From positions 1-27,200 of the IMG/VR virus record IMGVR_UViG_3300012931_000067: 27,200 nucleotides of DNA; one strand, written 5' to 3'. The DNA is from a virus. Positions 3,014 through 25,364 of this stretch are shown here, in pieces. Position 1 is the stretch's first letter; the number at the start of each line of letters is the position of its first letter. The position numbers were made by a program, and so were the translations under genes. The notes beneath the pieces are model-generated. The model had not been told where the DNA came from and ran no database searches. It worked only from the letters and a program-made list of their open reading frames with translations.

Positions 3014-3034
3014 TTCGGGCGTCATGCCCATCCT

Positions 3035-3121
3035 AGAGGTGTGGCCGAGCGGCCGATGGCGGCGGTCTTGAAAACCGCAGACCTTTCACGAGGTCCGGGG
3101 GTTCGAATCCCTCCACCTCTG
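3035..3121 (+). tRNA. tRNA-Ser (UGA)
   Basis: A full class II tRNA folds here. The 7-bp acceptor is AGAGGTG (3035-3041) with CACCTCT (3114-3120), with discriminator G at 3121 as expected for serine. The anticodon stem GCGGT/ACCGC encloses a 7-base loop with TGA at 3069-3071. The long variable arm forms a GACC/GGTC hairpin (3080-3095), and the T-loop TTCGAAT closes on a 5-bp stem with one G-T pair. CCA is not encoded. It decodes UCA and other UCN codons by wobble. Confidence 0.93.
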
Positions 3122-3144
3122 GGCTTACTTTAGAAGGAGTTCTT

Positions 3145-4003
3145 ATGCGTGTAGCGCTGTTCATCGACGGGAAGAATTTTTACTCGGGTCTCAAATTACA
3201 AGCTGCTGATTACGTGTTGGACTTTACGAAACTAGCCCAATGGCTGGTTAAGCACGTTGGCGGTTCACACCTCTGGGGCGCCTACTACTATACCGGCGTA
3301 GAGACATCTCGGCTTGGCTCGGCTACGGAGGGTCAGGGTCGCTTACTCTCGTTTTTGGGTATGCTTGAGATGCAGCCCGGCTACTTCGTCAAGCGACTTC
3401 CTCGTAAAACGGTCTCGACGACGTGCCGGCAGTGTAATGCGGAGACCGAGTTCTCGATCGAGAAAGAGATCGACACAACCATCGTCGCTGACATGTTGAG
3501 CCTGGCAGCGGTGAATGCCTATGACGTCGCTATTCTGCTGTCCGGTGACTCCGATTTAACCCCGGCTGTTACGGGTGTGAGAAGCATCGGTAAGCAGTGT
3601 TACGTCGCCACGTGGGGTAATGCCTGTCTGAGTGCTCACCTCCGCAAGTCCGCCTTTGATCATGTGAATTTGCTGGAAGGTCTCGCGGAGTTTGGGACCG
3701 TGACGGAGGTCGTAGACGGGGACTACCGCCCGGCTACGCTGGACGCCAACGGGGAGTTTGTTGAGCCCACCCCGGCAGAGGACCCGTCGCACGTCATGCT
3801 GCGTGCGATCAAGGCCGCGGTTGCGAAGTTCTCCGGCGGGTTTCTGGGGGAGAGCTACTTCCTGACGCGGTGGATATACACGGGCCTGCCTGCTGACTTT
3901 AACGTACGAAAAGCGACGCTTCAAACGTTGGTCGAGGCCGGTCTGGTGGAACGCTATCACGTGGATATGACGCCCGCATTGCGGCTCGCTACGGAGGACG
4001 GGC

Positions 4004-4020
<17 letters not shown>
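3145..4020 (+). CDS. NYN-domain (PIN-like) nuclease with C-terminal winged-helix-like region
   Basis: This 291-residue protein has the NYN/LabA-type core. The strand VALFIDGKNF carries Asp8. KEIDTTIVADM carries Asp110 and Asp116. LLSGDSDL carries Asp135 and Asp137. Acidic residues in these positions bind metal in PIN-fold RNases. A CRQC pair (C94, C97) sits in the insert before the second motif; no second Cys pair is close, so a zinc site is uncertain. Residues about 215-285 look like a small winged-helix domain (TLQTLVEAGLVERY). AAGGAG precedes the ATG. It lies between tRNA-Ser and an HNH gene that overlaps it by 17 bases. RNA cleavage, possibly of tRNA or mRNA, is inferred from the family; the substrate is unknown. 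Confidence 0.85.
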
Positions 4021-4655
<635 letters not shown>

Positions 4656-4661
4656 ACTTTT

Positions 4662-4737
4662 GCGACGGTAGCTCAGCTGGTAGAGCCCCCGGCTCATAAC
4701 CGGATGGTCGTGGGATCGTACCCCACCCGTCGTACCA
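4662..4737 (+). tRNA. tRNA with CAU anticodon (elongator Met or Ile2)
   Basis: The acceptor GCGACGG (4662-4668) pairs with CCGTCGT (4727-4733), the first pair being G-T. Discriminator A and encoded CCA (4735-4737) follow. The anticodon loop CTCATAA has CAT at 4695-4697. The outermost pair of the anticodon stem is a C-A mismatch, and the GGG/CCC pairs of initiator tRNA are absent. The T-stem GTGGG/CCCAC is perfect, but the loop reads ATCGTAC instead of the usual TTCGAAT type, so bases 54 and 58 are A and T rather than T and A. CAU can read AUG, or AUA if C34 is modified to lysidine; sequence alone does not decide. Confidence 0.85.
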
Positions 4738-4741
4738 TCAT

Positions 4742-4817
4742 GCTGACCTAGCTCAATCGGTAGAGCAGCGGACTCTTAATCCGAAGGTTGGGGGTTCGAG
4801 TCCCGCGGTCAGCCCCA
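4742..4817 (+). tRNA. tRNA-Lys (CUU)
   Basis: The acceptor GCTGACC (4742-4748) pairs with GGTCAGC (4807-4813), and encoded CCA is at 4815-4817. The anticodon loop CTCTTAA has CTT at 4775-4777, and the T-loop is TTCGAGT. Oddities are a C discriminator (A is usual for Lys), a G-A mismatch at the outer anticodon-stem pair and a G-G mismatch in the T-stem. It should decode AAG. Confidence 0.87.
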
Positions 4818-17236: not shown

Positions 17237-19885
17237 ATGGCTTATGAGGATGGCGCCCCTGGCGTTTCATTTACAGAGATCACGACATACCCGTCAACCG
17301 TCGCATTGCTCGATACCTCTACTCCCACATTCTTCGGCGTCGCTGAATGGGGGCCGCTGTTCACCCCTAAAAAACTGGTCGGCGGATTTTCTGCATACCA
17401 GAATATGTACGGTGAGCATCTGTCCTACAGCGACTTGGCGTACGTGGTGGACAACTTCCATAGCGAAGCCTCCACGATCGACACCAATGTTGGGGGCACG
17501 GTATTCATCTCGCGACTGGCGAAACTTAACCCGAGTCTGTCCGACGTGGCCGACTCCGTGGTGCGCGCCTCGGTGCCATTGACCGGTGCGACCACGCTTC
17601 CCCGTGGGGCCTACCTGTTGGGAACCACGTCTCCGGCATTGTATCTTGGTGGCTGGGCTATTCCGCGTGACACGTCGGTGGTTCTGAAGTGGACCGTGGA
17701 CGCGGACGGTGACGCGGCTTCCGCTAGTGCCCCGGTTACACAGCAGTGTGATCTCATTGGTTACGCGGCGGAGTTACTCTCCCCGTCCACTGTCACCACG
17801 ACCTTCACACCCGCCGGCGGCAGCACGTCGTTCCTGGAGATCCGTGTGGCGGAAGGTCAGAATCCCCTCCCCATCCTTTTCACGGCCGCTTCCTACACGC
17901 CGGTTCAGCTGGTGGACGCCATCAACCAGCAAGTCTCCAACTGCTCGGTTGAGCTTACCGCAGGCAACAAAGTGCGAATTATCCACGACTGCGGTGGTAC
18001 GCAGAGCTACCTGGCCATCACCAACGGTACGAGTGACATCTTGGCCTACCTGGGGTGGGACTCGGCACACCTGCCCACGGCCATCCCCTCCGGCGTCTCG
18101 AACGTCGCCAATACCATGAACGTCACCCTGGCGGAGATCAAAGCGGCCGTAACGGCGGTTTCGACGCTGGTGACGGTTTCGACCACGGTGACCCCCAAGA
18201 AGTTCAACCTGACTACGGTTGCGACCGGCGCCGCGGTGGAACTAAAATTCGACAGCACCGAGACTACCGCGATGGCGCGTACGATCTTCGGCATCTCGAC
18301 TGCGTCGGTGTTCGGTGCCAACTCGGGTACGGCTTCCCCCTCTCTGAAGGTGTGGGCGAAGTATTACGGCCTGAAGGGCAACCGCATCAGCGTGAAGACG
18401 ACCCACAATCCGATTCGGGCCTCTCAGTTGGACAGTTCCGACTCGTCGGCGACCGATCTGACTGACGAGGGCATTGTGGCGGGGCGCAACTACTTCCTCG
18501 TGCCGTCCCTGTACGGTTATGCGGTGGACATGGTTCTCCGCATTACCAGTGCGGATCAGTCCCAGGTGGAGTGGGTCGTTATCGACCGTACGGAGAGCGT
18601 CATCGACGAGAACGGCGACTACACGTATCGCCTCTATGTGACAAGTGACAACACGTCGTCCGGCGTTCTTCAGTACACCTTCGCGCAGGCCGACACCTCC
18701 ATCACCTCGATGGAATTCGACCTGGTCGTCTACCTGGATGGCGTGTCCAAGCAGACCTTCACTCAGTTGTCCATCAACGACATCGCGGACAACTATTTCG
18801 CTACCGTCATCTCGGACGAGTTTGTGGGGTCGAACCTGATCGAGGTTGAACCAGCGTCCGGTGCTGCGGAGAGACTGGCGACGCTTTTCCCGGCTGCCCT
18901 AACCACACCGGTTAAGCTGTCTGGGGCGACGTTGGAGACGGAAGACGACTACTCGATCAGCGACACGCATGCGGTCGGCTCATTGCAATACTATACGGGT
19001 ATGTACGCGATCCACAAACTGCGCTTCCAGTCGCAGCTGGTGGCCTACCCGAATGCGAGTGCCTTCTACCAGAAGAAGATGCACGCCTATCTGGCGAACC
19101 GCCGTGACATGTTCTTCGTGGCCTCCGTGCCGACGACGGATACAGGATTCGTGAGTATCAGTTCTGCCGCCGCCGCGTTTGCCTGGCGTGACCGTAACGG
19201 TTTCGACAGCAAGTACGGCGCCCTCTACTTCCCGAAGGCGGTTGTGGATGATCCGATCGGTAAAGGTCGCGCTCCACAGCGTACCATTGATCCGGTCGGC
19301 AATATCCTCGGTGTCTACTCTCGTGTTGACCATATCCCGGCTAAAGACGGCGGTGGATGCTGGTCCGCCCCGGCTGGTGACGGCGACTTCGGTCAGTTCT
19401 CGTACGTCAACAAGCTGTCCTACACCGTGGATGAGGACACCGAACTGGGAATGCTGAACAAGGCTGGTATCAACTGCCTGTTGGCGCGCCCGGGCGTGAT
19501 CCAAATCTGGGGAACTCGTACGTTGTCGTCCAACATAAAATGGCGCTACATTCCGGTCACGCGCTTGTTCATCATGGCCGAGCAGAGCGTTCTGCTGGGA
19601 ACCCGTTTCGCGGTCTTCCGTGGGAACTCGAAGCGGTGGTGGGATCTCCAGAAGGAGATGGTCGGCAACATGATGTACGACTTGTGGCGTAACGGCGCCT
19701 GGGTCGGTGACACAGCCGAGGAAGCCTACTACGTCAAGATGGGTATCAGCGACGGTACGATGACCGCGGCGGACAGGGTCAATGGGCGTGAACTCGGCGA
19801 GTTTGGTGGGGCTCCGGAACGTCCCGGCGAGTTCATTCATTGGAACGTCAACCAGTTGACCGGCGGCGACGTCGTCATCGTCTAA
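17237..19885 (+). CDS. tail sheath protein
   Basis: This 882-residue protein is the contractile sheath that drives the tail tube through the host envelope. The N-terminus GVSFTEITTYPSTVALLDTS followed by FFGVAEWGP matches the start of sheath proteins. The C-terminus has RYIPVTRLFIMAEQSVLLGTRFAVF and WWDLQKEMVGNMMYDLWRNGA, followed by the terminal strand that links subunits. T4 gp18 has 659 residues, so about 220 more lie here, mostly in the region after residue 120, probably as surface-exposed inserted domains. GAAGGAGGG precedes the ATG. Codon choice is strongly G/C-ending, as in the capsid gene. Confidence 0.95.
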   Translation: MAYEDGAPGVSFTEITTYPSTVALLDTSTPTFFGVAEWGPLFTPKKLVGGFSAYQNMYGEHLSYSDLAYVVDNFHSEASTIDTNVGGTVFISRLAKLNPSLSDVADSVVRASVPLTGATTLPRGAYLLGTTSPALYLGGWAIPRDTSVVLKWTVDADGDAASASAPVTQQCDLIGYAAELLSPSTVTTTFTPAGGSTSFLEIRVAEGQNPLPILFTAASYTPVQLVDAINQQVSNCSVELTAGNKVRIIHDCGGTQSYLAITNGTSDILAYLGWDSAHLPTAIPSGVSNVANTMNVTLAEIKAAVTAVSTLVTVSTTVTPKKFNLTTVATGAAVELKFDSTETTAMARTIFGISTASVFGANSGTASPSLKVWAKYYGLKGNRISVKTTHNPIRASQLDSSDSSATDLTDEGIVAGRNYFLVPSLYGYAVDMVLRITSADQSQVEWVVIDRTESVIDENGDYTYRLYVTSDNTSSGVLQYTFAQADTSITSMEFDLVVYLDGVSKQTFTQLSINDIADNYFATVISDEFVGSNLIEVEPASGAAERLATLFPAALTTPVKLSGATLETEDDYSISDTHAVGSLQYYTGMYAIHKLRFQSQLVAYPNASAFYQKKMHAYLANRRDMFFVASVPTTDTGFVSISSAAAAFAWRDRNGFDSKYGALYFPKAVVDDPIGKGRAPQRTIDPVGNILGVYSRVDHIPAKDGGGCWSAPAGDGDFGQFSYVNKLSYTVDEDTELGMLNKAGINCLLARPGVIQIWGTRTLSSNIKWRYIPVTRLFIMAEQSVLLGTRFAVFRGNSKRWWDLQKEMVGNMMYDLWRNGAWVGDTAEEAYYVKMGISDGTMTAADRVNGRELGEFGGAPERPGEFIHWNVNQLTGGDVVIV

Positions 19886-19902
19886 CGAAAGGGAGGTCCA
19901 AT

Positions 19903-20421
19903 ATGGGTACTGATCGAATCGCTGGGGCGTCGTATGACGACTACTCGCGTATCCCGGCCTTCCGGTTTACCGTGACCATCGGAAAAGATGAGATCGGGAT
20001 GCACAAGGTTGATGGCCTGGAAAACACCACTGAGGTCGCGGAATACCGCGAAGGTAACGAGGTCGAGGTCTTCCACAAAATGCCCGGTCTGACGAAGACG
20101 GGCAACGTGACGATGGAACGTGCCCTGATGCCGAAGTCCGCCGGTAGCCAAGCGACCGGCTGGGACTACTTCAAAAATTGGCGGAAGTTGGTCATCGACG
20201 TTGAGTCCGGCAACTCCGAAGAAGGTTTTCGTCGGAAGATGAAAGTCTGTGCCTATGATCGGCCGGTCACGTTCCCCTACGTCAACTCGACGGCCTCGGC
20301 CACGTGGTCATGTCTGGGTTGCTGGCCTGTTAAACAACAGTTCTCGAACCTGGATGCCACCGCTAACGAGATCGCGAAGGAGACGATCGAACTGGCGGTC
20401 GAACATATCATCTACACCTAG
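19903..20421 (+). CDS. tail tube protein
   Basis: This 172-residue protein follows the sheath after 17 bases with AGGGAGG before ATG. The frame is open further upstream to 19840 inside the sheath gene, but that part has no ribosome site, so 19903 is the start. It has the T4 gp19-like tube pattern: FRFTVTIGKDEIGMHKVDGLENTTEVAEYREG, then a positive-charged KMPGLTKTGNVTMERAL loop, then IELAVEHI at the C-terminus. Stacked hexamers form the inner tube. Confidence 0.92.
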   Translation: MGTDRIAGASYDDYSRIPAFRFTVTIGKDEIGMHKVDGLENTTEVAEYREGNEVEVFHKMPGLTKTGNVTMERALMPKSAGSQATGWDYFKNWRKLVIDVESGNSEEGFRRKMKVCAYDRPVTFPYVNSTASATWSCLGCWPVKQQFSNLDATANEIAKETIELAVEHIIYT

Positions 20422-20475
20422 TCGTGGGGACTGGGTCGTAATTGCCACAACCTGATTTGACACGAGGAGTTAACC

Positions 20476-21252
20476 ATGATCGGTACGGAAGTCCTTCTGC
20501 CTGTCGGCATTGAAGTGGGTGGGCAGCGTTACAAGCGCCTGATCGTTGATGAAATGTGCGGATTCGACGAGGAGAACCTTTCTTCGCAGGAAGTGAAGGG
20601 GAATGCCTCGAAGGCGAACACTGCTCTTCTGCGCCGCATCATCCAGTCCATTCCTGGGTACGTGGAAGCTAAGTCCTCTCGCTACGGAATGCTCGATGAG
20701 ATGCTGGTTCGTAACATGTACCAGGTGGACCGCGATGCGGCCGTCACGGGCATGCTGAAGAACTCCGACGATCCGACAACCACGGTGAAGTTGATCTGTC
20801 CGGATTGCGGCCTCACGCAGGCTCCCATTAAGGTGGACCTGCGTGAGGTTCCGTTTATCGACTTCCCGGAGACGTCCGAGCCGGGATTCAAGTTTACCCT
20901 TCCTCATGGAATTCAAGAAGGTGCTAACCTGTACCGTGAAGGCTTCTTTAGATTCCCCCGCGGGGCGGACATCGAAGCCACGGCCCCTACGGCAGCCGTT
21001 AACGTTTCGGCCGCCCAAACCCACCTCCTCTTCCTATGCGTCACCATGGACGCCGACGAGTTGGTGCTGGATCGCGAACTGATCAAGCGCATGCCGAAGC
21101 GGGATCGCGATTACCTAATGTGGATGCTGTCGAAGAAACTCCCGGGCTACGCAACGAAGGTTGAACAGACCTGTTTCCACTGTCAAACGGAAATCACGGG
21201 ACATGTCGATCTTCAGAGTTTTTTCGATTCGACGAAGGGCTTCAAAGAATAG
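20476..21252 (+). CDS. tail-assembly chaperone, zero-frame product (zinc-type Cys pairs)
   Basis: This 258-residue protein lies between tube and tape measure. Two Cys pairs, CPDC (C108, C111) and CFHC (C233, C236), probably bind zinc separately or together. The segment DYLMWMLSKKLPGYATKVEQ followed by the Cys pair and then D-L-x-S-FF resembles T4 gp26-type baseplate-hub or tail-assembly proteins, which end in a Cys pair and FF. The FF codons at 249-250 are also a slippery site. A -1 shift there makes a 311-residue fusion with the 21225-21410 frame. GAGGAG precedes the ATG. The chaperone role is inferred from position and frameshift. Confidence 0.8.
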   Translation: MIGTEVLLPVGIEVGGQRYKRLIVDEMCGFDEENLSSQEVKGNASKANTALLRRIIQSIPGYVEAKSSRYGMLDEMLVRNMYQVDRDAAVTGMLKNSDDPTTTVKLICPDCGLTQAPIKVDLREVPFIDFPETSEPGFKFTLPHGIQEGANLYREGFFRFPRGADIEATAPTAAVNVSAAQTHLLFLCVTMDADELVLDRELIKRMPKRDRDYLMWMLSKKLPGYATKVEQTCFHCQTEITGHVDLQSFFDSTKGFKE

Positions 21253-21259
21253 TCCTTCG
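21219..21259 (+). promoter_or_regulatory. -1 programmed ribosomal frameshift site with downstream hairpin
   Basis: The heptamer T TTT TTC (21219-21225) fits X XXY YYZ in the reading frame of the chaperone (AGT TTT TTC). Seven bases later CGAAGG (21233-21238) pairs perfectly with CCTTCG (21254-21259), a 6-bp stem at the spacing usual for a frameshift stimulator. The zero-frame stop is at 21250-21252, inside the loop. Confidence 0.75.
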
Positions 21260-21410
21260 AGCACTGGAAGACCACATAGAGTTACTGGCCGAGAGGTACC
21301 GATGGACTCCGACTACCGTCTTGGAGCTGACTTCCAAACGTCGCCTGGCCTTTGCTGACCGGGCATTGGATCGGTACAAGAAGGAAGAAGAAGCCATGAC
21401 GAAACGGTAA
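21225..21410 (+). CDS. -1-frame extension of the tail-assembly chaperone
   Basis: This 61-residue reading frame has no plausible start of its own: its only ATG is four codons before its stop. It is therefore read as the end of a -1 frameshift fusion, join(20476..21225,21225..21410), giving 311 residues. After the two Phe codons it reads RFDEGLQRIVLRAL, later LLAERYRWTPTTVLELTS, and ends in a charged helix EEEAMTKR. The Y-x-W-x-P-x-x-(V/I)-L-x-L pattern resembles small proteins found at this place in phages and contractile injection systems. Two-product chaperones by -1 shift are the rule before tape measure genes (lambda G/GT). Confidence 0.75.
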   Translation, partial: RFDEGLQRIVLRALEDHIELLAERYRWTPTTVLELTSKRRLAFADRALDRYKKEEEAMTKR

Positions 21411-21442
21411 AAGCTCGGCTGGGAAACCGGCCGGGCTTTTTT
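21409..21442 (+). terminator. strong intrinsic terminator upstream of the tape measure gene
   Basis: AAAAGCTCGGCTGG (21409-21422) pairs with CCGGCCGGGCTTTT (21427-21440), 14 bp with two G-T pairs, around a GAAA tetraloop. Six T bases (21437-21442) end the structure. It begins inside the stop codon of the frameshift product and ends 13 bases before the tape measure ATG, too close for a new promoter, so some transcripts must read through. Confidence 0.85.
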
Positions 21443-21455
21443 GATGGAGACTTGA

Positions 21456-24400
21456 ATGGCCAACAAACTGGAAATGCAAATCCTGCTGACGATGATGGTT
21501 GATGAGGCCGTTATCTCTGCGAAGCAGGTTGCACAGGCCATCAAGGGTGTTAAAGTATCCGCGCAAGACACTGATAAAGCCGTCAAGACGGCGTCTGCCT
21601 CTATCGTCAAATCCGAAAAACAACTTCAATCTGCTGCCCGAGAAACTGAGCGAGCGGAGGCACGAGCCGCCGCGGCTGCGAAGAGGGCGGCAGCGGACCG
21701 TGAGCAAGCTTCGCGACGGGCTGCCGCAGCTATGGCTAACGAACGGCGGGAAGCGGAACGCCTATTTCAGGTCTTCGCGCGCAATGCCCGGTCGTCGCGT
21801 AACTCAAGTGCCGACCGGTACGCTGCTCCGTATGGCTCAGCCTGGCACGGAAGTGCCCAGCAGTCGGCGGACGCCTTCCGGCAGCACTACTTGGCTCCGA
21901 TGTTGGCCCGTGAGGAAGAGGGGCGCCGCGCGGCGCAACGGGCCGCATCCGGACAAGCATTCTGGAATTCGTGGGCAGGTGTGGGATCGGGCAGTGGGAA
22001 GAGCGCACGTGACTCGGCGTCGGTCTTCAAATCTGGTTTTGCTACCCAAGCGGAGTCGGACGCCAAACTCCGAATGTTACGGGCTCACGAGGATCGTCAG
22101 CGGGTAGCGCAGGAGCGTGAGCAGAAGCGAAATGCACGCATGGAAGCCGAGCGCCGGGCTAACGCCAGTCGTGAGCAGTGGCAACAAGCTCTCGGTGTGA
22201 CGACTACCGGCCTCGCGGTCTCTATGGGTCTGGCGAGTGCCGGCGACTTTGCCATTAACAGTGTCCTTAAACCTGCTCTGGACGCCGCCGGTAAATTCGA
22301 GAGTCGCATGGTGGACATCGGTTTCATCATCGGCGATTATACCGGTACGAAGTTTAAGGAAGCTTCCAAGCACATTAAACAGTTCTCTATGGACTCGACA
22401 TGGTCTCTGCGTCAGACTCAAGACGCCATCTATCAGCTGTTGTCTGCTGGGTTACAGTTACGTGATGCCCAAGCTGTGTTGCCGTCAACCTACGCCTTTT
22501 CGCTCTTTACTGGTGGCCGTCAATCTACCGAGTCCATCAACAAGATGTTCACGTCAGTGTATAATAAGTTTTCTCCCACCACGGGGTATCTAAAAAATGC
22601 GGGTTTGGGGAAAGCCTATTCCATCATTGGCGACCAACTTGCCAAGATGGTTAACATATCAAAATTCGATCCCGAAGAAGTTGCCCCATTTGTAAACTCG
22701 CTTGGTATGGCGCCAACGCGTTATAACATCCCACTCCATACGGTCTTAGGTATGGGTGCGATGATTAAGCAGTTCGGTAACCAGCCGGCGGAATCCGGCG
22801 AGTTTGTGAACATCCTCTTTAGGCGCACCGCTGAAATTGAGAAGATGTACAAACGCGGCCAAGCTGGCGGGGATATTACTAAGTTTTTGGGATCACTGAA
22901 TCCGAGTCAACCGGAGTACTTACAGCGGGCCATGAAAGCTATGGCACGGGACGGTACTGGCGGTAAAGGAAAAGGTCGCGGAACTATAGCTGCAAAAACT
23001 ATCTATGGTATGATGTCAATGCTGGACATCAACCCATTCGATGAGACCAAGAAAGGTCGTCCTATGAAGGACGGTCTTGAGTTCGTTACAGACGTGGTAG
23101 GAAAACTGGATAAGTATAATGACGAGTTGGGCAAAACCGTCATTATGAATACGTTATTTGGTGAGATCGGCGGTCAGGTTCTGGCCATGGTGAAGAACTT
23201 CCACCTGGAGGTGGAACGTGGCGGGAAGATCGTTACTCTTTATGGTGCGCAAGCTCTGAAGGAATACACCCGGCAGATTAAAGAATCCGGTGGAGAACTG
23301 GAGAAATTCAAACGAGAGGTCTTTGAAACCTGGGAAAAGACAATAGACCGGTTCAACAATTCACTCACCGCATTAGCTACTAGTATGGGGGCGACGTGGA
23401 AACCGTTAGTGCAGCCATTCATCGAGGCACTGACGACGCTGCTTAATAAAGCCTCCACGTTTGCGGATAAGTATCCAGTTATCGGTCACGGAATTGGGAT
23501 GCTGCTGATCGGCTTCGGATCGTTGGCCGTCGTGTTAGGTAAAGTCGGTACCGCCTTCTTTGGGTTCACGTCAGCTCTTGGTCTTACATACTACTTCACT
23601 CGTCAAGTGGCCGGTGAAGTGGGTATGTTCCGCGGAATCCTGATCCTGTTGCGTAAATCGTTCGAGCCCTTAATCAACACCATTCTCAAACCGTTTGGGA
23701 TGTCGCTATCAGCGGTAGGTTGGATTCTAAAAGGTACCCTGATTGGGGCACTTATTATGGCCGTCCTCTATATCACGAATTTGGGTGGGGCGGCTGAGTG
23801 GGTGAACGAAAAATTACGAGCCACGAAACTGATATTCCACGCACTGCGGGAGTACTTCTCAACCGGGCAGAATAAGGGTTCAACTCTGATGGCCTTACTC
23901 GGGGTAGACGAGAATGGGCAGCAGAAGTATGCTAACGTTCTCGGTATCTACGAAGACATCCTGTATGTTGTGCAGATTTTGAAAGTCGCCTGGCTTGGCC
24001 TGAAGATGGGGGTTGACGACTTCCTGCAAGCCGTCAATCCAGCGGCCAAATCTATCGGGAAGCTACTCGGGATAGTTTTGAACATCGCCGCCGTTGCTCT
24101 GGGCGTGTTCTTTCCCGGAGTCAGGAAGGGGAGTAGCTCTCTGGAAACTTTCACAAACATCGTGTACGGACTCACCCGAGTGTTCCTGGGTCCACTTGAG
24201 ATGTTTGCCAGGTTAGTTGGAGTTATCGCGGATGTGGTGAGTTACGTTTCCCAAATAAATGGGGTAGCTCAGGCTCTACAAGCTGTAGCTACTGCCCTGA
24301 CAGCAATTTGGCTGGCACGCTTTGGGATGAGAGTTTTACGTGGAGCTGCGAAGGTAGGTGGGAAGGCAGTGGGCGTCGGTGGAGCGGATGCCGTGGGCGG

Positions 24401-25364
24401 AAGCGGCATACTGGGAACCATTGCTTCGTTTGCGTTATGGGACGTGGTAGTTAAAATGTTTTCGACGGCTTTCAAGTTCTTTTTGGCAAATGGTCTACGC
24501 GGAGGACTGCGTATGATGTTTGGAACGGTAGCTCGGTTTTTTGTTACCACTGTTATCGGAGGACTCGCCACATTCTTTACGGTGACTGTACCAATGTTCT
24601 TTAAGGGTCTGCTGGTTCCTGTGTTATCGTCCCTCGGAGAGTCCCTCGGTGTTGGTGCCCTTACTGGGGGATTATGGGGAGCGATCGGTAGCTTGTTCAT
24701 ATGGATCGGTACCTACATCATTGCCCCGTTTGTCACTGGTTTAAGTATAGGTATCGGTCTGGTAGCTCAGTGTGGTGACGTGTTTGGGCGTCTAATGCTC
24801 GGATTCCGGGGATTGTGGATTGACTTCCAACACGCGTTGCCTAGTTGGATGGGTGGGACTACGGATAAGGAGTATGCGGAAAAACAGAAGGCATTCTATA
24901 AGGACATTGGTGAGTTCGATCAGCGGAATGAGGAACGGAAAGCTCGGTATGACAAATACGGTGCACTTGCCGGATGGCGTCAGGATCTTTACAGCTCCGG
25001 ATTTACGACTCTGGGGAAAAGTCAGGGCGATTATGATCGCGACAACCAACTGAAAAATACCCGTGGGTCCGGTATCGCAACGGACTCTAAAGGGAACATC
25101 ATTGACATGGCGAAGGGGACTAAAACTTCTCCGGACGGTAAAGTCACGAGTATCCGAACTGCGCGCACGAAGGAAGAATTGTCGGCCTTACACCAACGGT
25201 CCGCGGTTGGTGGCGAGGCGCCGGGCGCGTCAATCGGGCACATCTCTAATCAGTTTACGTTCAACGTGGATAAGCCCTTGTCGGAAGCCCAACTGCGCCA
25301 AATCATCAACTGGATACGCGACCATGCGGACGAATTCGGTGCTGCTACCGTTGGGAGGCAATGA
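21456..25364 (+). CDS. tail tape measure protein
   Basis: This 1302-residue protein is the largest in the window and sits after the chaperone, as tape measures do. Residues about 30-100 and 205-245 are Ala/Arg/Glu-rich coiled coil. A TP901-type core follows at about 280-380 (FIIGDYTGTKFKEASKHIKQFS, then TQDAIYQLLSAGLQLRDAQ). Several long hydrophobic stretches occupy about 680-780 and 880-1110 (for example HGIGMLLIGFGSLAVVLGKV), consistent with parts that contact the host membrane. At roughly 1.5 angstroms per residue, tail length would be near 195 nm. Codon use is more A/T-ending than in the capsid and sheath genes, fitting lower expression. GGAG is 6 bases upstream of the ATG. Confidence 0.93.
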   Translation: MANKLEMQILLTMMVDEAVISAKQVAQAIKGVKVSAQDTDKAVKTASASIVKSEKQLQSAARETERAEARAAAAAKRAAADREQASRRAAAAMANERREAERLFQVFARNARSSRNSSADRYAAPYGSAWHGSAQQSADAFRQHYLAPMLAREEEGRRAAQRAASGQAFWNSWAGVGSGSGKSARDSASVFKSGFATQAESDAKLRMLRAHEDRQRVAQEREQKRNARMEAERRANASREQWQQALGVTTTGLAVSMGLASAGDFAINSVLKPALDAAGKFESRMVDIGFIIGDYTGTKFKEASKHIKQFSMDSTWSLRQTQDAIYQLLSAGLQLRDAQAVLPSTYAFSLFTGGRQSTESINKMFTSVYNKFSPTTGYLKNAGLGKAYSIIGDQLAKMVNISKFDPEEVAPFVNSLGMAPTRYNIPLHTVLGMGAMIKQFGNQPAESGEFVNILFRRTAEIEKMYKRGQAGGDITKFLGSLNPSQPEYLQRAMKAMARDGTGGKGKGRGTIAAKTIYGMMSMLDINPFDETKKGRPMKDGLEFVTDVVGKLDKYNDELGKTVIMNTLFGEIGGQVLAMVKNFHLEVERGGKIVTLYGAQALKEYTRQIKESGGELEKFKREVFETWEKTIDRFNNSLTALATSMGATWKPLVQPFIEALTTLLNKASTFADKYPVIGHGIGMLLIGFGSLAVVLGKVGTAFFGFTSALGLTYYFTRQVAGEVGMFRGILILLRKSFEPLINTILKPFGMSLSAVGWILKGTLIGALIMAVLYITNLGGAAEWVNEKLRATKLIFHALREYFSTGQNKGSTLMALLGVDENGQQKYANVLGIYEDILYVVQILKVAWLGLKMGVDDFLQAVNPAAKSIGKLLGIVLNIAAVALGVFFPGVRKGSSSLETFTNIVYGLTRVFLGPLEMFARLVGVIADVVSYVSQINGVAQALQAVATALTAIWLARFGMRVLRGAAKVGGKAVGVGGADAVGGSGILGTIASFALWDVVVKMFSTAFKFFLANGLRGGLRMMFGTVARFFVTTVIGGLATFFTVTVPMFFKGLLVPVLSSLGESLGVGALTGGLWGAIGSLFIWIGTYIIAPFVTGLSIGIGLVAQCGDVFGRLMLGFRGLWIDFQHALPSWMGGTTDKEYAEKQKAFYKDIGEFDQRNEERKARYDKYGALAGWRQDLYSSGFTTLGKSQGDYDRDNQLKNTRGSGIATDSKGNIIDMAKGTKTSPDGKVTSIRTARTKEELSALHQRSAVGGEAPGASIGHISNQFTFNVDKPLSEAQLRQIINWIRDHADEFGAATVGRQ

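Follow-up and report, generated by a model that had tools for sequence, protein, structure and literature searches.

The chaperone locus and its gene neighborhood

The locus described here lies in an IMG/VR record of an uncultivated, contractile-tailed phage. The whole 27.2-kb stretch, referred to as the window, is a metagenomic contig and possibly a fragment. Its genes are ordered terminase, portal, scaffold, sheath, tube, chaperone, tape measure and a CIS_tube-like gene. The features from the sheath gene to the tape-measure gene are all on the plus strand. The tail sheath gene (17237-19885) matches phrog_23 (E 2.4e-28), the tail tube gene (19900-20421) matches PF06841 Phage_T4_gp19 (E 1.4e-25), and the tape-measure gene (21456-25364) matches PF10145 (E 1.7e-10) and phrog_1272 (E 2.1e-12). 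The chaperone gene sits between the tube and tape-measure genes, which is the place expected for a chaperone of the lambda G/GT kind. A ribosome-binding site, GAGGAG, was seen in the sequence at 20464-20469. The zero frame runs from 20476 to 21252, ends with a TAG stop at 21250-21252 and encodes a protein of 258 amino acids, the short form. Elsewhere in the window are four tRNA genes (Ser, Pro, Met and Lys; 3034-4817) and a gene for an NAD-dependent DNA ligase with OB-fold and BRCT domains (19-1728).

Relatives and family of the chaperone

The comparison set consists of the window and 19 relatives, with near-identical contigs counted once. The relatives are metagenomic contigs, and their proteins mostly share about 30% identity with the window protein. 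They were reached first through sheath and terminase searches and afterwards through an alignment, the chaperone gene being the one before the tape measure. A search with the chaperone alone found no close relatives among viral contigs or known phages, and a scan of prokaryote genomes and a plasmid search found no relatives.

The sequence-only reading had called this type of protein less familiar. That description needs softening, as Pfam, a gp26 profile and fold matches all place the chaperone within the T4 gp26/gp51 family (Pfam T4_baseplate), though as a distant member. The window protein matched PF12322 with an E of 1.5e-4 and 21.9 bits, which is under the gathering threshold of 24.5. It also matched a PHROG baseplate-hub family. 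Of the 18 sequences in the alignment, 16 gave a PF12322 match at E <= 0.01, the best being 2e-12. When a profile of the chaperone alignment was compared with a T4 gp26-family profile using hhalign, the probability was 91.7% and the E 7.7e-7. This alignment spans both CxxC motifs of the chaperone (C108/C111 and C233/C236) up to the Phe-Phe that ends gp26. T4 gp26, the short form in that phage, likewise stops just past Phe-Phe. A PF12322 scan of the 27.2-kb record for another, in-frame long copy of the T4 kind gave no match at E <= 0.001, with the known chaperone itself also missed.

The AlphaFold2 model of the short form (pLDDT 86.6) is confident through a short helix bearing the Phe-Phe, and the zero-frame stub that follows (residues 252-258) is disordered. 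Fold matches to predicted structures in BFVD start from an E of 2e-25, and several of these are named T4-like hub assembly. Among solved structures, a fold search gave no significant match to the chaperone model and a sequence search gave no chaperone relative. The HK97 tail chaperone turned up in the fold search and was set aside as not significant (E 4.2).

A slippery heptamer where the shared domain ends

The heptamer T TTT TTC lies on the two Phe codons at 21219-21225. As the sequence-only reading had proposed, it is in the right phase, with agT TTT TTC gat as the zero-frame reading, and it falls on the Phe-Phe that closes a domain shared by the zero-frame and fused proteins. The confident part of the model ends at the Phe-Phe helix, and both forms share the domain. 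In all 20 sequences, an in-phase X XXY YYZ heptamer was found where the shared domain ends. It is T TTT TTC in 11, G GGT TTT in six, and T TTT TTA, T TTT TTT and A AAT TTT in one each. G GGT TTT, in its six sequences, is one codon upstream of the T TTT TTC-type site. At the Phe-Phe and Phe-Leu sites the preceding codon always ends in T, though the residue it encodes is Ser, Ala, Gly or Asp. The type of heptamer thus varies among proteins that are mostly ~30% identical, and it is lost in none. A relative that keeps the -1 frame open after losing the heptamer, the case that would have spoken against the sequence-only reading, was sought among the 19 and none was found.

Given the S-F-F residues and local codon usage, the chance of a slippery heptamer in the window is ~0.10. 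For the relatives (n=19), synonymous recoding with local codon usage gave a chance of 0.01-0.33 per sequence for an X XXY YYZ at the site; these values stand singly and are not to be multiplied into one probability, because the sequences share ancestry. Synonymous change was also followed along the gene in the six contigs that have G GGT TTT. It is 0.34-0.70 (about 0.5) along the gene and 0.09 and 0.07 in two blocks beginning at the heptamer. A drop from the heptamer onward is the mark expected where two frames are read.

These comparisons bear on two explanations in which the ribosome plays no part in the change of frame. One is an assembly or sequencing indel, with both frames truly belonging to one intact gene, which would fit the homopolymer at the site and the origin of the window as a metagenomic contig. 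The same frame break occurs in the same place in ~20 distinct contigs, a comparison by which the artefact is already refuted, and the synonymous suppression from the heptamer onward indicates that both frames matter. We give an indel virtually no credence. The other is slippage of RNA polymerase on the six-T run. The run is T6 in the window and as long as T8 in L020, which is in favor of this explanation, but six T is a short run for polymerase slippage. Where the heptamer is G GGT TTT or A AAT TTT, the T run is only five or four long and the layout is unchanged, and the sites are phase-locked heptamers. Polymerase slippage is highly improbable. Both explanations were rejected because the heptamers varied and the distinct contigs were many.

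The -1 frame encodes a conserved domain

The -1 frame extension (21225-21410) is open for 61 codons and ends at a TAA (21408-21410). Conceptual translation bore out the proposed fusion length of 311 residues. This predicted long form carries the entire folded domain of the short form plus a helical C-terminal domain. The -1 frame passes the zero-frame stop in every relative. It extends for 43-71 codons except in contigs that end sooner, such as L031, where the frame runs to the contig end. Across the relatives it encodes one domain, with an invariant W and R and the pattern (A)ERW.W..D.LSLP..R..Y. Three helices are predicted for this domain. Past the zero-frame stop, substitutions are distributed according to -1 codon position, with values of 0.29, 0.20 and 0.47 at the three positions.

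The segment might instead be a small gene in its own right, with an independent start, expressed by coupled translation or reinitiation past the zero-frame stop. Annotators do list a small separate gene here in relatives, such as Streptomyces phage LuckySocke. The only start-like -1 codons in the window, for which no usable start had been claimed, are two TTG within the domain, neither with a Shine-Dalgarno match, and one ATG four codons before the end. The second case that would have spoken against the sequence-only reading, a second part provided with a ribosome site, was also looked for. In 18 of the 20 sequences there is no ATG that follows a Shine-Dalgarno match of >=5 bases upstream of the W motif, and the two exceptions are consistent with a separate gene. 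L035 carries AGGAGG followed by an ATG in the -1 frame, and the GC-rich L058 has weaker candidates. In the G GGT TTT clade, the -1 frame is without any ATG, GTG or TTG. A separate gene would also leave the heptamer unexplained, and overall we judge it quite improbable compared with a ribosomal slip.

A presumed stimulatory hairpin

A spacer of exactly 7 nt (21226-21232) separates the heptamer from a presumed stimulatory hairpin, which has a 5' arm, CGAAGGGCT, at 21233-21241 and a 3' arm, AGTCCTTCG, at 21251-21259. The perfect 6-bp stem (CGAAGG/CCTTCG) that had been noticed seven bases past the heptamer is present, and RNAfold lengthens it to 9 bp with one G-U (-12.8 kcal/mol). The zero-frame stop was said to lie in the hairpin loop. 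This is true of the 6-bp stem, but two of the TAG bases are paired in the 9-bp version, so that only part of the stop lies in the loop when nine pairs form. The z-scores for the window fold are -2.97 for 45 nt and -0.88 for 75 nt, and about 2-4% of window 32-mers match the stability of the hairpin. The predicted hairpin is plausible. By itself it is weaker evidence than the heptamer and the frame, and it is the weakest part of the frameshift reading.

In L016, the nearest relative, a 5' arm is found at the same 7-nt spacing and the 3' arm 9 nt further on, so the base pairs are not homologous to those of the window. A covarying hairpin common to the two was considered and rejected on account of this displacement. 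In the G GGT TTT clade a different hairpin, GGGTC/GACCC, lies eight nt downstream and varies in its loop, and little structure is predicted past the heptamer in L034, L033 and L028. The sequence-only reading had suggested checking by alignment whether heptamer, 7-base spacer and stem are kept. A heptamer is kept in 20/20, but the spacer and stem are positioned alike only in the closest relative. Since the lineages differ in their hairpin or have little structure, the presumed stimulator is lineage-specific, unlike the conserved heptamer and frame. An Rfam search gave no match reaching a family threshold.

A second hairpin, which is terminator-like (-24.6 kcal/mol, with a T run after it), occupies the gap between the chaperone and tape-measure genes (21411-21443). 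A simple terminator scan of the window did not pick it up. It may reduce tape-measure expression relative to the chaperone. Terminator-like hairpins are also seen before the tape measure in L016, L020 and perhaps L035, and in most other relatives only 2-14 nt separate the -1 stop from the tape-measure start.

Proposed synthesis of two chaperone forms

On the comparative evidence, a -1 programmed frameshift very probably yields two tail-assembly chaperones, one short and one long, from this one gene. The sequence elements, their phase and conservation, the gene order and the protein family are observed here. Whether and how efficiently ribosomes slip, whether the hairpin stimulates this and what the two forms bind are inferred, as follows. 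Most ribosomes would translate 20476-21252 and release the 258-residue short form. A minority would be paused by the hairpin 7 nt past the heptamer and slip back one base, with tRNA-Phe on T TTT TTC re-pairing to TTT TTT. The slipped ribosomes would then read 61 further codons to give the 311-residue long form with its added helical domain. By analogy with lambda gpG/gpGT, the shared domain might serve as a coat for the tape-measure protein, the product of the next gene, and the C-terminal domain, which is rarer, might recruit tube subunits.

Comparison with known chaperones

Frameshifted tail-assembly chaperones are a textbook feature of phages, and those of the lambda gpG/gpGT type were reportedly described by Xu et al. 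2004. The window resembles lambda in having overlapping frames right before the tape measure, an X XXY YYZ site and a shared N-terminal domain. As in the lambda G/GT kind, the second frame in the window family is coding, overlapping and without its own start. Unlike the lambda protein, the window protein is T4 gp26/gp51-like, has two CxxC motifs and is about 250 aa long.

The hub-assembly chaperones of T4 are gp26 (short) and gp51 (long). The domain aligns through both CxxC motifs to the Phe-Phe of gp26, and a weak alignment (E 0.019) places the C terminus of gp51 against the -1 domain in the right register. In contrast to the window, gp26 and gp51 are two genes that are divergently placed. 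A passage in PMC10885494, citing Vladimirov et al. 2022, describes this two-gene solution as a short copy and a fused long copy, and Vladimirov et al. 2022 may anticipate part of the clade finding. According to a review, long-tailed phages "except T4" share a conserved G-T frameshift (PMC5009743). The clade with the very probable -1 frameshift belongs to the family of that stated exception, and its interest is comparative.

In Pakpunavirus/Vandenendeviridae, the chaperone gene that precedes the tape measure has a T-rich site, GTTTTT, for a -1 frameshift (PMC12846349). The T-rich -1 site and its place are as in the window, but the protein is a different, smaller one, and the PAK_P1 homologue is Pfam Phage_TAC_15. 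In a Pfam search, DUF6760 (PF20546) was weakly matched by 9 of 18 -1 domains at E <= 0.1 (best 3.4e-4), and it was not matched by the window's own -1 domain.

The chaperone family is also found before the tape measure in Streptomyces phages BRock, LuckySocke and pSt2308, Bacillus phage SP-15 and Streptococcus phage GXN1. The three chaperones tested from this group matched Pfam with an E of 7e-11 to 1e-28. A similar short segment follows each chaperone. Unlike that of the window, it is open in the +1 frame and is without the -1 heptamer. It was judged similar to the -1 domain by eye and from its position, and profile searches did not confirm homology. A +1 layout has been reported for haloviruses of the HF1 group (PMC7230728).

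It is about an even bet that T4-type chaperones make short and long forms in at least three ways at one junction, namely a -1 slip, a +1 slip and two genes. The -1 clade would then have replaced its heptamer at least twice, the +1 slip would be that of the Streptomyces, Bacillus and Streptococcus phages, and the two genes those of T4. If this is true, small orphan genes beside such chaperones, DUF6760 members included, would often be mis-annotated frameshift extensions. The -1 clade, the relatives that seem to use another frame and the two-gene T4 form a tractable series for studying how and why phages switch between ways of setting the ratio of short to long chaperone. For gene callers there is a correction to make, as the second half of the chaperone is usually missed or called as a separate small gene.

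In the five cultured phages with +1 segments, these are at 5885-6142 in L039 and near 3211 in L063, 3214 in L064, 2730 in L071 and 3750 in L061. That of LuckySocke (L039) is annotated as a separate small protein with its start within the conserved motif. A 595-kb uncultured phage (LR756511, unannotated; L062:2501-3430) also has this chaperone, with T TTT TTC as its heptamer and the -1 frame open.
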